Of a stretch of 64,000 nt of DNA, positions 58,099 through 63,309 are shown in pieces. The notes under the pieces are model-generated. The model was not told the origin of the DNA. It did not search any database and was given only the letters and a program-made list of their open reading frames with translations. Numbering within the stretch: the first letter of the stretch is position 1; every line of letters begins with the position of its first letter. A program made the translations under genes and the position numbers. The stretch is taken from contig JAPOYA010000003.1 of the NCBI GenBank assembly GCA_026706815.1, forward strand, positions 1-64,000, written 5' to 3'. This DNA is from Acidimicrobiaceae bacterium (lineage in GTDB: Bacteria > Actinomycetota > Acidimicrobiia > Acidimicrobiales > Aldehydirespiratoraceae).

Positions 58099-59586
58099 AT
58101 GAAACAAATCCAACACCTCATCGACAACAGGTCCGCGGCTGGTGCATCCGGACGGACTTCGCCCATTTTCAACCCCGCGACCGGTGAACAGACCGGGGAT
58201 GTCGCTCTGGCTTCCGCATCTGAGGTCGACGCGGCGGTCGCCTCCGCAAAGGCGGCGTTCGCTGAGTGGAGCGAGGCGAGCATCGCCCGACGGACCAAGC
58301 TGATGTTCGCGTTTCGCAATCTCGTCGTGGACAACGCCGCCGAAATAGCGGCCCGGCTCACCGCCGAGCATGGCAAGGTAGCCTCGGACGCGGCCGGCGA
58401 AGTGGCGCGCGCGATCGAGAACATCGAGTTCGCGTGCGGTATTTCCGAGCATCTGAAAGGCAGCCACAGCGAGAGCGCTTCCACAGGAGTAGACGTCTAT
58501 TCGGTGCGACGGCCTCTGGGGGTGGTCGCAGGCATCACACCCTTCAACTTCCCGGCGATGGTTCCCATGTGGATGGTTCCCAATGCTGTGGCATGCGGCA
58601 ACACGTTCGTGTTGAAGCCCTCAGAGCGCGATCCATCGGCGCCGTTGTTCATGGCCGAACTGTTCTGCGAAGCAGGTTTCCCACCGGGAGTGCTGAACGT
58701 GGTGCAGGGCGACAAGGTCGCGGTGGACCGTCTGCTCGCGCATCCCGATGTGGAGGCTGTGAGCTTTGTCGGGTCGACCCCGATCGCCAAGCACGTCTAT
58801 GAGACCGGCAGCGCCAACCACAAGCGGGTGCAGGCGCTCGGGGGAGCCAAGAACCACATGATCGTGCTGCCCGACGCCGACATCGACATGGCAGCCGACT
58901 CCGCGGTCTCGGCCGCTTACGGCTCCGCCGGCGAACGCTGCATGGCGGTCTCAGTGGCGGTGGCAGTCGGCGATGCGGCCGACCCTCTGGTCGATGCCAT
59001 CAAAGTGCGCATGGAGAAGCTGACGATCGGCGACGGCACTGATCCGGCTTCGGAGATGGGGCCGCTGATCACCCGGGAGCACCGCGACAGAGTCTCCGGC
59101 TATGTGACAGCGGGCGAGGCGGCAGGCGCATCCGTGATCGTCGACGGCCGCGAAGCCCAGTTCGACAACGACGGCTTCTTTCTCGGCGTCACCCTGCTCG
59201 ACCATGTGACCCCGGACATGACTGTGTACACCGACGAGATCTTCGGCCCGGTGCTGAGCGTGGTGCGGGTCGGCACCTATCGTGAGGCCGCCGATCTGAT
59301 CGCCGGCAACCCCTGGGGCAACGGCGCGGCCATCTTCACCCGGGACGGCGGCGCAGCACGCCAGTTCCAACAGGACGCGGACGCCGGCATGGTCGGCGTC
59401 AACGTGCCGATTCCAGTGCCCGTCGGTTACCACTCCTTCGGCGGTTGGAAGGACTCCGCCTTCGGCGACACAACCATGTACGGTCCCGAGGGCATTCACT
59501 TCTACACCCGGCCCAAGGTGCTCACCACCCGCTGGCCCGACCCGGCCGGCAGCTCCGTCGACCTGGGGTTCCCCACCAACGAATAG
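58099..59586 (+). CDS. mmsA: CoA-acylating methylmalonate-semialdehyde dehydrogenase
   Basis: 495 residues of the aldehyde dehydrogenase superfamily. GITPFNFPAMVPMWM is the NAD-binding opening, GSAGERCMAVS contains the nucleophilic Cys, and LGGAKNHMIVLPDADID has Asn where hydrolytic aldehyde dehydrogenases have the general-base Glu, consistent with CoA rather than water as acyl acceptor. The reaction converts methylmalonate semialdehyde to propionyl-CoA (or malonate semialdehyde to acetyl-CoA) with NAD+ and CO2 release in valine and beta-alanine catabolism. It is co-transcribed with the aminotransferase. The propionyl-CoA formed would feed the methylmalonyl-CoA mutase encoded at 33.5-37.6 kb. 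Confidence 0.95.
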   Translation: MKQIQHLIDNRSAAGASGRTSPIFNPATGEQTGDVALASASEVDAAVASAKAAFAEWSEASIARRTKLMFAFRNLVVDNAAEIAARLTAEHGKVASDAAGEVARAIENIEFACGISEHLKGSHSESASTGVDVYSVRRPLGVVAGITPFNFPAMVPMWMVPNAVACGNTFVLKPSERDPSAPLFMAELFCEAGFPPGVLNVVQGDKVAVDRLLAHPDVEAVSFVGSTPIAKHVYETGSANHKRVQALGGAKNHMIVLPDADIDMAADSAVSAAYGSAGERCMAVSVAVAVGDAADPLVDAIKVRMEKLTIGDGTDPASEMGPLITREHRDRVSGYVTAGEAAGASVIVDGREAQFDNDGFFLGVTLLDHVTPDMTVYTDEIFGPVLSVVRVGTYREAADLIAGNPWGNGAAIFTRDGGAARQFQQDADAGMVGVNVPIPVPVGYHSFGGWKDSAFGDTTMYGPEGIHFYTRPKVLTTRWPDPAGSSVDLGFPTNE

Positions 59587-59590
59587 AGCG

Positions 59591-60814
59591 TCAGCTTTCT
59601 GCGGTCCCGCCGGAGCCTTCTCTCGGTCCGGGGCTGAACGTGACGGGAAGTGACCGCCAGCCGGTGACGTTGGATGAGTGGAAGCGCACCTTGGCGTCGT
59701 GGTCGACTTCGTAGTCCGGTATTCGGCGCAGGATCTCCTCGAGCGCCACTTTCCCCTCCATCCGGGCCAGAGCCGCGCCCAAACAGAAGTGCGCGCCGTA
59801 ACCGAAACCAAGGTGTCTGTCCGGGCGACGGAAGACGTCGAACTCCTCGGCGGTGGGGCCGAACTCGCGTTCATCATGGTTGGCTGCCCCGATCAGCAGC
59901 AATACCGAATCGCCCTCGCGCATCTTCTGTCCATGGATCTCGAAGTCGCGGGTGAGGGTGCGATGCATGTACTGGGTTGAGTTGTGGTAGCGCAGCACCT
60001 CTTCGATCGTGCCCGGAACGAGTTCCGGGCACGCAGTCACCGCGGCCTTCTGTTCCGGGTGCCTCGACAGCAACTCCATGACGTTTGCAACCATCTTGGT
60101 GGTCGTCTCGTGGCCGGCGATGACGAACAGGATGCAGAAGCCGAGAAGTTCCTCGTCGGTCAGCACCCGCCCCTCGAACTCGAATCCGACGAGATCGCTG
60201 ATGAGGCCCGTTCCCTCACCGGCCTTGCGTTTGGGCAGGTCCTCCATGAAATAGCTGACAAGGCCGAACAGCCCCTCGGCGGCCTCGGGCGGGATCGAGC
60301 ACACACCGTCCTCGCGGATCATCACCTTGTCGCTGTGGGCCCGCAGACCCGGGCGGTCCGCCGCCGGGACGCCCAACACCGCCGAGATCACATCCATCGG
60401 GAACGGGCTGGTGAGGTCGTTCACCGCCTCTGCTCGGCCCGATTCGACGACTTCATCGAGGCAGCCGCTGAATATCCTGCGGATCTCGGCTTCCATTCTC
60501 GCAACGGTGCGGGTCGTGAACACCCGGCTCACCAGCTTGCGCAACACGGTGTGCTCAGGCGGGTCGTATTCGATCATCTGATGGAAACCGGCGCTTTCGC
60601 CGATGGGTCGACGGCTCTCCAGTGCGACACTGCCCCTAGACGACAACAACGCCGTGTCGCGAAAACCCTCCATGACGTCGTCGAAGCGGCTGAGCGCCCA
60701 GAACTCGAGGTCGGGGTTCCAATAGGCGGGAGCTTCGTCGCGCATCCGCTTGTAGGTGACGTACGGATCGTCGTGATGCGCAAACCCGAACGGGTTGTAG
60801 ACGAGTTCGGTCAT
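59591..60814 (-). CDS. Cytochrome P450
   Basis: 407 residues. The heme loop is FGYGAHFCLGAALARME with the axial Cys, the I-helix is VIAGHETTTKM, and EVLRYHNS contains the ExxR. The N-terminus with PFGFAHHDDPYVTYKRMRDEAPAYW is typical of soluble bacterial P450s (class I, needing ferredoxin and reductase). It does not look like the CYP125-type gene at 29.9 kb in the substrate-recognition regions. It converges with mmsA (4-bp gap). No ferredoxin gene is adjacent. The substrate is unknown; a hydrophobic terpenoid, polyketide or xenobiotic is plausible. Confidence 0.9.
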   Translation of the reverse strand: MTELVYNPFGFAHHDDPYVTYKRMRDEAPAYWNPDLEFWALSRFDDVMEGFRDTALLSSRGSVALESRRPIGESAGFHQMIEYDPPEHTVLRKLVSRVFTTRTVARMEAEIRRIFSGCLDEVVESGRAEAVNDLTSPFPMDVISAVLGVPAADRPGLRAHSDKVMIREDGVCSIPPEAAEGLFGLVSYFMEDLPKRKAGEGTGLISDLVGFEFEGRVLTDEELLGFCILFVIAGHETTTKMVANVMELLSRHPEQKAAVTACPELVPGTIEEVLRYHNSTQYMHRTLTRDFEIHGQKMREGDSVLLLIGAANHDEREFGPTAEEFDVFRRPDRHLGFGYGAHFCLGAALARMEGKVALEEILRRIPDYEVDHDAKVRFHSSNVTGWRSLPVTFSPGPREGSGGTAES

Positions 60815-60892
60815 CCCAAGACCGTAGCCAACCCTCTCGCGAGTTTCGATTTTGCGATGCAGGCACCCGAGATTCTCGAACGGGTATTGTGC

Positions 60893-60926
60893 TTGCAGAA
60901 TAACGCTGTAGCGCTATTCTGTATGC
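60893..60926 (+). promoter_or_regulatory. VapBC promoter with an overlapping 26-bp palindromic operator, leaderless start
   Basis: TTGCAG at 60893-60898 and TATTCT at 60915-60920 are separated by 16 bp. The A of the antitoxin ATG (60927) falls where transcription should begin, so the message is probably leaderless. An almost perfect palindrome (22 of 26 positions, 60896-60921, arms CAGAATA and TATTCTG) covers the whole promoter. VapBC complexes repress their own promoters by binding such dyads; that mechanism is inferred here. Confidence 0.7.
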
Positions 60927-61160
60927 ATGGCCACGATTCAGATCCGAGACATTTCCGAGGACACCTATGAGATCATTCGCCGACGCGCTCGAGCCGCTGG
61001 ACAATCCATCCAAGTGTACATGAAAAGGGCCATCGAACGAATGGCGCGGCAACCCGACGACGACGAACTCTTCGCCAACCTTGAGTACTTCGTAGAAGCC
61101 CAGGGGATCAAGCTCGACATCCAAGCCGTTCTCGGCGACATCGACGACGGGCGCAGATGA
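60927..61160 (+). CDS. VapB/FitA-type antitoxin
   Basis: 77 residues. The N-terminal TIQIRDISEDTYEIIRRRARAAGQSIQVYMKRAIERMA is a ribbon-helix-helix DNA-binding unit, with the beta strand TIQIRDI and two helices, as in FitA antitoxins. The C-terminal acidic tail DDDELFANLEYFVEA would wrap the toxin. The ATG lies at the expected transcription start and there is no Shine-Dalgarno site. Its TGA overlaps the toxin ATG by four bases (ATGA), giving coupled translation. It likely represses the operon together with VapC. Confidence 0.85.
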   Translation: MATIQIRDISEDTYEIIRRRARAAGQSIQVYMKRAIERMARQPDDDELFANLEYFVEAQGIKLDIQAVLGDIDDGRR

Positions 61161-61570
61161 ACTCAGGAACGGTCGTCGTTGATGCTTCCACACTCGTCGC
61201 CGCCGTCATCGACGCCGGCTCCGTCGGAAGCCAAGCAAGGGGCCGGTTACGGGGTTGCCGTCGGGTCGCGCCGTTCCTGATTGACGCCGAAACCGGGCAT
61301 GCGCTTCGGAGGATGGCGCTGAGGGGCGATCTCGCCTCCGGCACAGCCGAGGCGGCACGGCTGCGAGCCGAAGGGATGATCCACCGCCGCCTCCCCCACC
61401 ACGGCAAGCTCAACGCCCGGGCCTGGCAACTGCGTCACAGCTTGACGTTCTACGACGCTTTGTACTTGGCGCTGGCCGAGCACCTCGAATGTCCGCTCGT
61501 CACCGCCGACCAGCGAATCGAGCGCGCCCATCCATCCCACGAACTGATCCAGACAATCTGGACTAACTAG
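61157..61570 (+). CDS. vapC: PIN-domain toxin VapC
   Basis: 137 residues. The four acidic positions expected for a PIN nuclease are visible: Asp in VVVDASTLV, Glu in DAETGHALR, Asp in TFYDALYLALAE, and Asp in LVTADQRIE. VapC toxins cleave tRNA or rRNA and are held by the adjacent antitoxin. The start ATG overlaps the antitoxin stop. All catalytic residues look intact, so the pair is likely functional, in contrast to the decayed copy at 0.87-1.16 kb. The target RNA is unknown. Confidence 0.9.
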   Translation: MNSGTVVVDASTLVAAVIDAGSVGSQARGRLRGCRRVAPFLIDAETGHALRRMALRGDLASGTAEAARLRAEGMIHRRLPHHGKLNARAWQLRHSLTFYDALYLALAEHLECPLVTADQRIERAHPSHELIQTIWTN

Positions 61571-61612
61571 ACCGCGGTCGTCAGGTCATCTGTCAGAGAC
61601 ACACAGCCGGAA

Positions 61613-62986
61613 CTAGAGGTGCTGGAGGGACTTGGTGATGCTGACCACGGCTTCGCGGCCGTCTCCGAAGAGCATCAAGGAATTGTCGGCGGCGAACAGC
61701 GGGTTGGGGATCCCCGCGAATCCCGGGCTGAGGCTGCGTTTGATCACCACGACGACATCGCTCTTGTCCACATCAAGGATCGGCATTCCCGCGATCGGGC
61801 TCGACGGGTCTGTGCGAGCGACTGGGTTCACGACGTCGTTGGCGCCGATGACGATCGTCACGTCGGTCTGCTCGAAGGTCGGATTGACGTCATCCATCTC
61901 AACGAGACGTTCGTAACTGACCTCCGCCTCGGCCAGCAGCACGTTCATATGGCCGGGCATCCGCCCGGCAACGGGATGGATGCCGAACACCACTTCCACA
62001 CCGCGTTCCGCCAAGCGCCGGGTGAGGTCCCTCACCGCGTGCTGAGCCTGGGCCACCGCGAGCCCGTAGCCCGGGACGATCGCCACACGCTCAGCCGACT
62101 CGAGCAGCATGGCCACATCATCAGGAGAGGTTGAGCGGACTTTGCCCGCATAGATGTCGTCGACATCGGCGCCGCTGCCCGAGGGTGCAGGGCTGAACAT
62201 CACAGCCGGCAGAGTGCGGTTCATGGCGACGCACATGATCTGGGTGAGGATCAGGCCGCTCGCCCCCACCAGCGAGCCGGCGATGATCAACAGCGAGTTG
62301 TCGAGCACGAAACCGGCCGCCACCGCGGCCATCCCCGACAGCGAATTCAACAACGCGATCACCACCGGCATGTCCGCTCCGCCGATCGGCGCCACCACCA
62401 GCAGTCCGAGAACGGCCCCGACCGCAACCAACAGCCACAGCCACAGAGAATTCTCCGCGTCGACCGCCATCAGCACCGCGAAAACCACCGCAGCCACCAT
62501 CCCGATGCCGCTCAGGAAAGTGATGCCCGGAAATCCTGACCAATGCAACGCCTCGCGGAGCTTGGCGAAGGCGACGAGGCTCCCTGTGAACGCGACCGCC
62601 CCGATCAGCGACGCCAGCGCCGCCGACGACGACAGCCGGGAGGTTTCTGTCGCCAGATCAACGGCTTGGGTGTAGGACGCAGCCGCGACCAGCACCGATG
62701 CGCCTCCGCCGAAGCCGTTGAACAACGCGACCAGTTCGGGCATGGCCGTCATCTGGACCTTCACGGCCAGCAGCGCTCCCACAACCGTGCCCAGAATCAA
62801 TCCGCCCGCGATCCACTCGAAGCCGATGATGGAGTTGTCGGTGAGGGTCACCAGCACGGCGACGAGCATTCCCGCCGCTCCGTACTGGTTGCCTCGCACT
62901 GCGGTGCGGGGCCGACTGAGCCGTTTCAGGCCGAGGATGAACAGCACGGCCGCTACGAGATAGCCCAGAGCGGCCCAGTCGTCCAT
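61613..62986 (-). CDS. pntB: Proton-translocating NAD(P)+ transhydrogenase, beta subunit
   Basis: About 457 residues: 8-9 membrane helices (GYLVAAVLFILGLKRLS at the start, several GA-rich helices) and then an NADP-binding domain III with VPGYGLAVAQAQHAVRDL and DVTIVIGANDVVNPVA. It transfers hydride from NADH to NADP+ using the proton gradient. GTG and ATG are adjacent; the ATG at about 62986 overlaps the stop of the preceding subunit (TGATG). It is the last gene of the leftward pntA1-pntA2-pntB run. Confidence 0.95.
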   Translation of the reverse strand: MDDWAALGYLVAAVLFILGLKRLSRPRTAVRGNQYGAAGMLVAVLVTLTDNSIIGFEWIAGGLILGTVVGALLAVKVQMTAMPELVALFNGFGGGASVLVAAASYTQAVDLATETSRLSSSAALASLIGAVAFTGSLVAFAKLREALHWSGFPGITFLSGIGMVAAVVFAVLMAVDAENSLWLWLLVAVGAVLGLLVVAPIGGADMPVVIALLNSLSGMAAVAAGFVLDNSLLIIAGSLVGASGLILTQIMCVAMNRTLPAVMFSPAPSGSGADVDDIYAGKVRSTSPDDVAMLLESAERVAIVPGYGLAVAQAQHAVRDLTRRLAERGVEVVFGIHPVAGRMPGHMNVLLAEAEVSYERLVEMDDVNPTFEQTDVTIVIGANDVVNPVARTDPSSPIAGMPILDVDKSDVVVVIKRSLSPGFAGIPNPLFAADNSLMLFGDGREAVVSITKSLQHL

Positions 62987-63309
62987 CACAGATCTTCCCC
63001 GTCGGTCTCGGACTGGTCAGCGGCCGCACGACGGCGTCTTGGTCCGAACATATGCAGCATCCGGTGGGTCACCAAGAAACCTCCCACGACATTGATCATC
63101 GCCATGGTGACCGCAACGAATCCCAGGACCGCGGTGAAGGTCGAGTGGTCGGCGCCGGCTGCGAGCAGCGCCCCGACGATCGTTATGCCCGAGATGGCGT
63201 TGGACCCCGACATCAGGGGGGTGTGCAATGTCGGGGGCACCTTGGTGATCAACTCCACGCCGAGGAACACAGCGAGCACCAACAGGGTGGCGGCGATCAA
63301 CAACTCCAC
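62986..63309 (-). CDS. NAD(P)+ transhydrogenase, alpha subunit part 2 (PntA2/PntAB)
   Basis: About 107 residues with three or four hydrophobic helices, including LLIAATLLVLAVFLGVELI and the LHTPLMSGSNAISGITIVGAL segment characteristic of the PntA C-terminal membrane part. In this organism the alpha subunit is split into two genes, as in many Actinobacteria. The GTG at 63307-63309 begins directly at the first helix, 5 bp downstream of the pntA1 stop; the longer frame to 63489 overlaps pntA1 and is rejected. It forms the membrane channel with PntB. Confidence 0.9.
   Translation of the reverse strand: MELLIAATLLVLAVFLGVELITKVPPTLHTPLMSGSNAISGITIVGALLAAGADHSTFTAVLGFVAVTMAMINVVGGFLVTHRMLHMFGPRRRRAAADQSETDGEDL

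Follow-up and report, generated by a model that had tools for sequence, protein, structure and literature searches.

The window analysed here is a stretch of 64,000 nucleotides from an uncultured actinobacterium close to Acidimicrobiales, the genome of which is high in GC, 3.04 Mb in size and divided over 65 contigs. Two genes on the plus strand, vapB and vapC, are flanked by a cytochrome P450 gene and by pntB, both of which are encoded on the minus strand (Table 1). The stop codon of vapB and the start codon of vapC share the four nucleotides ATGA (61157–61160). An ATGA or GTGA overlap at this position was observed in 81 of 150 homologous vapB genes, was absent in 68 and was cut off in one. 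An in-frame TAG is located at 60909–60911, 18 nt 5' of the vapB ATG and with no start codon in between, so the vapB frame cannot begin upstream of 60927. The P450 gene, which is divergent from vapB, has a leaderless-type start in which TACGGT (60826–60821) is followed by six bases and an ATG (60812–60826, minus strand).

Table 1. Features of the vapBC locus, with coordinates as positions in the window.
Feature	Position	Strand	Evidence or remark
Cytochrome P450 gene	59591–60814	minus	One flank of vapBC
vapBC-containing segment that congener G223 lacks between its pntB and P450 genes	60852–61614		Genome comparison
vapBC cassette found elsewhere in G223 (80% identity), with the same homology edges in G379 (80%)	60889–61558	+	Genome comparison
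Extended imperfect inverted repeat, 38 bp	60890–60927		18-nt arms 15/18 paired (83%); 15/19 with centre pair
-35-like hexamer TTGCAG	60893–60898	+	Weak, 3/6 to TTGACA
16-bp spacer	60899–60914	+	Sequence
Left operator half-site AACGCT (one mismatch to AGCGCT), predicted	60902–60907		At -25 in 16/23 T-Q-R antitoxins, at most one mismatch
Right operator half-site AGCGCT, predicted	60910–60915		At -17 in 23/23 T-Q-R antitoxins, at most one mismatch
-10 hexamer TATTCT	60915–60920	+	-12 to -7 from ATG; position kept in homologues
Predicted transcription start, A of vapB ATG (leaderless)	60927	+	Inference from homologue comparison
vapB, 77-aa FitA-like ribbon-helix-helix antitoxin, residues T3-Q5-R7	60927–61160	+	PF22513, FitA and FitAB-DNA matches
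vapC, 137-aa PIN-domain toxin	61157–61570	+	PF01850, PIN folds
pntB	61613–62989	minus	Other flank of vapBC

The original prediction had described the gene pair as a VapBC operon, and this identity was borne out by profile and structure matches. VapB matched PF22513 with a score of 28.6 bits (cut-off 27), and its closest sequence among the solved structures was FitA (PDB 2h1o, 2bsq) with an E-value of about 0.001. The fold search for VapB returned the FitAB-DNA complex as the top match (2bsq_G), which was weak with an E-value of 0.068, and the NCBIfam mycobacterial VapB model gave 27.2 bits, under its 60-bit cut-off. VapC matched PF01850 over the cut-off with an E-value of 8.4e-11, and its predicted structure, with a pLDDT of 93.8, gave VapC and PIN structures as fold matches. 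The four PIN acids that the toxin had been said to contain were identified as D9, E45, D100 and D118. D9, E45 and D100 showed no variation in 20/20 aligned toxins, and conservation at D118 was at least 90%, with a G in its place in the close relative L006. Of the seven VapC relatives found in named records, the best five (66–83% identity) are from metagenome-assembled genomes of Acidimicrobiia/Acidimicrobiales, and the other two are weak and come from elsewhere. The matches support a VapBC pair of the FitAB, or ribbon-helix-helix (RHH), type, in which VapC would act as the toxin.

Other labels for the locus were tried and rejected. Structured RNA was rejected on the basis that Rfam gave no match at the gathering threshold in the region 60000–62000, and a defence-system label was discarded after PADLOC gave no match up to E = 1. 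A phage origin was also discarded, as PHROG gave a single weak match of unknown function for VapB and none for VapC.

The letters of the putative promoter, TTGCAG and TATTCT with 16-bp spacing, were confirmed as originally predicted (Table 1), and six bases separate TATTCT from the vapB ATG. The consensus of 13 close relatives at the -35-like site is TTGCAAA. The -35-like hexamer of the window is weak and a sigma-70 consensus scan of 59500–62400 gave 0 promoter-like sites, so the promoter is predicted from the -10 hexamer and its spacing to the ATG. A 26-bp palindrome with 22 matching positions had also been described, and this was found at 60896–60921, centred between 60908 and 60909, with 11/13 pairs and therefore 22/26 positions matching. 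This palindrome takes in the whole of the -10 and only the CAG of the -35-like hexamer. The claim that the palindrome lies across both hexamers consequently holds for the extended 38-bp form, which covers both and has the A of the ATG as its right end, and fails for the 26-bp form, which takes in half of the -35. Sites of 26 bp with at least 11/13 pairs were found at three of 63,960 window centres, where 20 first-order Markov sequences gave 1.85 on average, and the 26-bp palindrome was therefore rejected as a rare object on its own. Sites of 38 bp with at least 15/19 pairs were found once in the window, where 0.2 were expected, and in 0/2000 local simulations (112 centres). Within the window, chance is an unlikely source of the 38-bp symmetry.

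The distance between the -10 and the start codon was compared among homologues within the order. Of 397 genomes screened with a profile built from 26 antitoxins, 144 had a match among the matches listed. The 152 loci collected comprised 30 and 120 from among the matches listed, plus L033 and L036, a set in which weaker relatives are missing. Two loci without a start codon (L123 and L179) and 10 redundant loci were dropped, leaving 140 non-redundant homologues in which the start positions were set by the protein profile, independent of the promoter. The sequence TANNNT was found at -12 in 84/140 homologues, at -13 in 6/140 and at any other offset between -45 and +9 in at most 9, while NANNNT was found at exactly -12 to -7 in 128/140. 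The exceptions at -12 were 12/140 without NANNNT and 56/140 without TANNNT; when either -12 or -13 was allowed, TANNNT was found in 90 and NANNNT in 136 of the 140. The NANNNT pattern is loose and is frequent at other offsets (36/140 at -4, 24/140 at -32 and 95/140 at +5, inside the gene), so the evidence lies in the peak and not in the pattern. A 5-nt Shine-Dalgarno core was found in the last 18 nt before the start in 0/140. The vapB gene of the window has TANNNT approximately 12 nt before the ATG and is without a Shine-Dalgarno sequence. This conserved spacing across the homologues, together with the lack of Shine-Dalgarno cores, supports a leaderless vapBC transcript with a predicted start at the A of the vapB ATG, which is where the original prediction had placed the expected +1.

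A further 59 loci were obtained from elsewhere in the phylum, 19 of which were delivered by the search and 40 chosen manually among the places that it listed. Of these loci, 27 had TANNNT at -12 and 11 had it at -13, 44 had NANNNT at -12 and 55 had it at one of the two positions, and a Shine-Dalgarno core was found in 0. The outgroup contained 16 Pseudomonadota and one cyanobacterium, and was made up of one seed and 16 loci picked by hand for diversity among 50 listed of 407 records. Unlike the window operon, these 17 FitA-type relatives had no TANNNT at -12 (0/17; 1/17 at -13, the Rhizobium locus L278), NANNNT was at -12 in 3/17, and Shine-Dalgarno cores were present in 6/17 by the strict 5-nt rule. 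Within this sample, then, the leaderless layout is associated with the phylum. A tblastn search of VapB against plasmids gave no match. A second plasmid query gave two records, one alphaproteobacterial, which served as the outgroup seed, and one from the actinobacterium Tsukamurella, the plasmid homologue of which (L277) lacks both NANNNT and TANNNT at these two positions (-12 and -13) and has no annotated vapC adjoining.

The PhdYefM antitoxins of the order (L294–L323, n = 30) had TANNNT at -12 in 5/30 and at -13 in 8/30, with NANNNT 12–13 nt before the nearest start in 22/30; Shine-Dalgarno cores were observed in 7/30, including those starting MKTMTYSESR. As an own-genome control 249 genes were used, giving TANNNT at -12 in 27/249 and NANNNT in 40/249, against a background of crude gene calls with uncertain starts in which genes inside operons were included. 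The cold-shock genes of the order had TANNNT at -12 in 1/28, two of the 30 loci being without a usable start. Both toxin-antitoxin (TA) families, FitA-type and PhdYefM, show the leaderless layout more often than the cold-shock control does. On these counts the predicted layout is usual for FitA-type VapBC in Actinomycetota and not exceptional. The description of the control region as unusually compact was accordingly not upheld, as this antitoxin family usually has such a layout across the phylum sample, and the layout is already published for TA operons of Mycobacterium tuberculosis.

Conservation upstream of vapB was measured in a set of 13 close relatives, the window copy included. The mean fraction of the majority base was 0.41–0.51 over -120 to -41, conservation began abruptly at -40 with values of 0.78, 0.83 and 0.96 up to -11, and the last ten bases (-10 to -1) were less conserved at 0.65. 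The consensus of these relatives was GTGCTTGCAAA..AGCGCTGTAGCGCTATT.TG. A leader carrying a signal of its own was rejected because nothing is conserved upstream of -40 in the 13 relatives. The last T of the right half-site is the first base of the -10. In addition to the two half-sites given in Table 1, AGCGCT with at most one mismatch was found at -6 in 6/23 T-Q-R antitoxins, and half-sites were present at -6 to -1 in 12/14 N-Q-R antitoxins. The outer symmetry (arms of 15–19) was limited to 4 among the first 11 sequences compared, the window's own included, and the outer half of the palindrome is kept only among the closest relatives. We take the operator core to be a predicted tandem AGCGCT-N2-AGCGCT, which is narrower than the palindrome and fills the spacer between the -35 and the -10. 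The palindrome that had originally been proposed to cover the whole promoter is partly fortuitous, since it is the inner AGCGCT pair that is conserved and few sequences have the long outer symmetry. A search of the source genome for the pattern AGCGCTNTAGCGCTA with at most two mismatches gave 12 matches, two of which are the window locus on either strand, compared to 50 for the backwards control, and a genome-wide regulon was rejected on this basis.

Residues 3, 5 and 7 of RHH antitoxins face the DNA, and the antitoxins were classified by these three residues. For each class the k-mer was the best one chosen after the fact, with p-values that ignore relatedness: AGCGCT was found in 22/23 T-Q-R antitoxins compared to 9/117 others, GCGCCA in 20/21 S-Q-K antitoxins (15/119 others) and in 10/10 T-Q-K antitoxins (25/130 others), GCATGT in 13/14 N-Q-R antitoxins (15/126 others) and TTGCAT in 16/24 N-L-R antitoxins (17/116 others). 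With residue classes that omit 4/140 training and 17/57 test loci, a k-mer classifier recovered the class in 106/136 by leave-one-out. When trained in the order and tested outside, it gave a modest 19/40, where 200 shuffles of the labels gave 6.7 on average and 14 at most. The T-Q-R loci outside the order were mostly misassigned, with 1/11 right, and several of these have a K before T3-Q5-R7 together with GCATG-like sites, so residue 2 may matter too.

Pairs of antitoxins with at least 50% identity outside the β-strand gave an operator similarity of 0.052 when of different class (966 pairs) compared to 0.128 when of the same class (1424 pairs). At less than 40% identity the operator similarity was 0.109 for the same class (83 pairs) compared to 0.064 for different classes (2989 pairs). 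These pair similarities indicate that the operator tracks β-strand residues 3, 5 and 7 more than overall relatedness. Half-sites that appear to change in this way with the VapB residues are possibly new. A direct literature search, with subscription journals mostly outside its coverage and so of weak value as evidence for novelty, found no precedent for the residue/half-site series. The second close FitA-type antitoxin of the genome, L002 (G000:C37:71019-71237), belongs to the N-L-R class and has a TTGCA-type half-site; a perfect 10+1+10 palindrome covers its -10 and extends into the first two bases of the ATG. The differing operators of L002 and the window vapB would insulate the two modules from one another.

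Six genomes of the genus were searched for the P450/vapBC/pntB arrangement. In G034 the order P450-vapBC-pntB is the same as in the window (L006). In G223 the P450 and pntB matches are 10 bp apart, constituting an empty site, and the cassette is on another contig (L361 G223:C1, L357 G223:C2). The left homology edge of the cassette coincides with the operator, and judging from the aligned copies the module seems to bring its own control region and nothing more. An empty pntB-P450 site in a congener that carries the cassette elsewhere is possibly a new observation. The distribution of the toxin is patchy, with a match in 124/298 genomes of the order. The copy in G118 (L005/L035, contig C38, vapC 328–738) contains one in-frame stop in vapC, while its vapB is open and the operator core is kept.

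As a whole the data are best explained by an autoregulated leaderless FitAB-type TA operon in which the operator overlaps the promoter, and we consider this highly probable. RNA polymerase would use TATTCT and the weak -35 to start at the A of the vapB ATG, which would give an mRNA without a leader, from which VapB would be translated without a Shine-Dalgarno sequence. The translation of VapC would be coupled through the 4-nt ATGA overlap. Dimers of VapB, held together by VapC, would place their β-strands (T3, Q5 and R7) on the AGCGCT half-sites at -25 and -17, and because these half-sites occupy the spacer and have one base in common with the -10, bound VapBC would exclude RNA polymerase. On degradation of VapB the promoter would open and the antitoxin would be made first, while free VapC would cleave RNA. 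Autoregulation is suggested by what is known of the family and by the covariation between operator and β-strand. The palindrome overlaps the predicted promoter and the half-site covaries with the VapB residues; VapB or VapBC may bind there.

The weak -35, the consensus scan that returned no promoter and the leadered appearance of the Pseudomonadota relatives, with their Shine-Dalgarno cores, could also be accommodated by a leadered vapBC transcribed from a promoter further upstream. The spacing between TATTCT and ATG would then be coincidental, and the palindrome would be an operator or an mRNA structure in the leader. This is very unlikely, however, as the -10 is fixed relative to the ATG across 140 diverged loci, none of which has a Shine-Dalgarno core, nothing is conserved upstream of -40, and window position 60889 is where homology to the cassette starts in two congeners. 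It is most improbable that the module is a decaying remnant with neither toxin nor regulatory function: the interrupted vapC of G118 and the patchy presence in the order would agree with decay, but in the window both genes are open, the PIN acids are kept and the promoter and operator are visibly constrained.

The extent of the operator is more evenly balanced. The true operator may be the AGCGCT-N2-AGCGCT core only, in which case the 26–38 bp symmetry would arise incidentally from a TTGCA-like -35 lying opposite a TGCAT by the start codon and would not be used by VapBC. The positions of AGCGCT at -25 and -17 in the T-Q-R antitoxins (16/23 and 23/23), the small number of sequences with the 15–19 arms and the lower conservation of the last ten bases all point to the core, whereas the half-sites at -6 to -1, found in a minority of T-Q-R and in most N-Q-R antitoxins, and the improbability of a 38-bp symmetry arising by chance in the window point to a longer operator. 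We give this core-only operator an even chance of being correct.

The half-site of FitA is unlike the AGCGCT of the window operon, and MazE6 of M. tuberculosis is an RHH protein. The FitAB system of Neisseria gonorrhoeae (2bsq, 2h1o) resembles the window operon in having an RHH antitoxin and a PIN toxin. Four FitA-FitB heterodimers are described on a 36-bp stretch of the fitAB upstream regulatory region (PMC3920265, PMC3384007). Leaderless genes are given an average of 19.2% in Actinobacteria, and the leaderless signal is described as TANNNT about 12 nt before the start, in PMC3160421. In M. tuberculosis, 32/37 TA gene pairs with a primary start are leaderless according to PMC3898074, and leaderless TA operons of this organism are restated in PMC8485053. 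Transcription of these begins on the start codon, and a TANNNT -10 is present at most promoters of M. tuberculosis, which is the same layout as predicted here. The present case differs from M. tuberculosis in that the layout is predicted from the sequence alone and concerns one antitoxin family in an order and its phylum. The MazEF6 system of M. tuberculosis (PMC9477884) has an operator centred on the -10 TANNNT, like the window operon, but differs in having a MazF-type toxin and a single 18-bp operator; in MazE6 the specific contacts to bases are made by β-strand residues, which vary among paralogues. Published examples from M. tuberculosis already include leaderless TA operons in which the operator lies at the -10, and the window operon is of a known kind.

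It is possible, though we put it slightly below an even chance, that FitA-type VapBC operons of Actinomycetota share a fused unit of ~40 bp, with the operator, the promoter and the start codon inseparable from one another, and in which the half-site is rewritten with three VapB residues (T-Q-R with AGCGCT, x-Q-K with GGCGCC/T, N-Q-R with GCATG, N-L-R with TTGCA and x-T-R with TGCTG/TGCAG). If true, this would constitute a readable specificity code that stops cross-regulation between paralogous modules of one genome, and the cassette would work wherever it lands with no leader needed. The comparison suggests that leaderless expression is widely shared by FitA-type TA systems in Actinomycetota and not by the 17 sampled non-actinobacterial relatives. 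The operon itself is ordinary, and its value may lie in the natural series of 199 related antitoxins (140 from the order and 59 from elsewhere in the phylum) to which it belongs. Nearly all of these have a -10 and an operator near a fixed distance from the start, so the DNA specificity of RHH antitoxins would be testable residue by residue.
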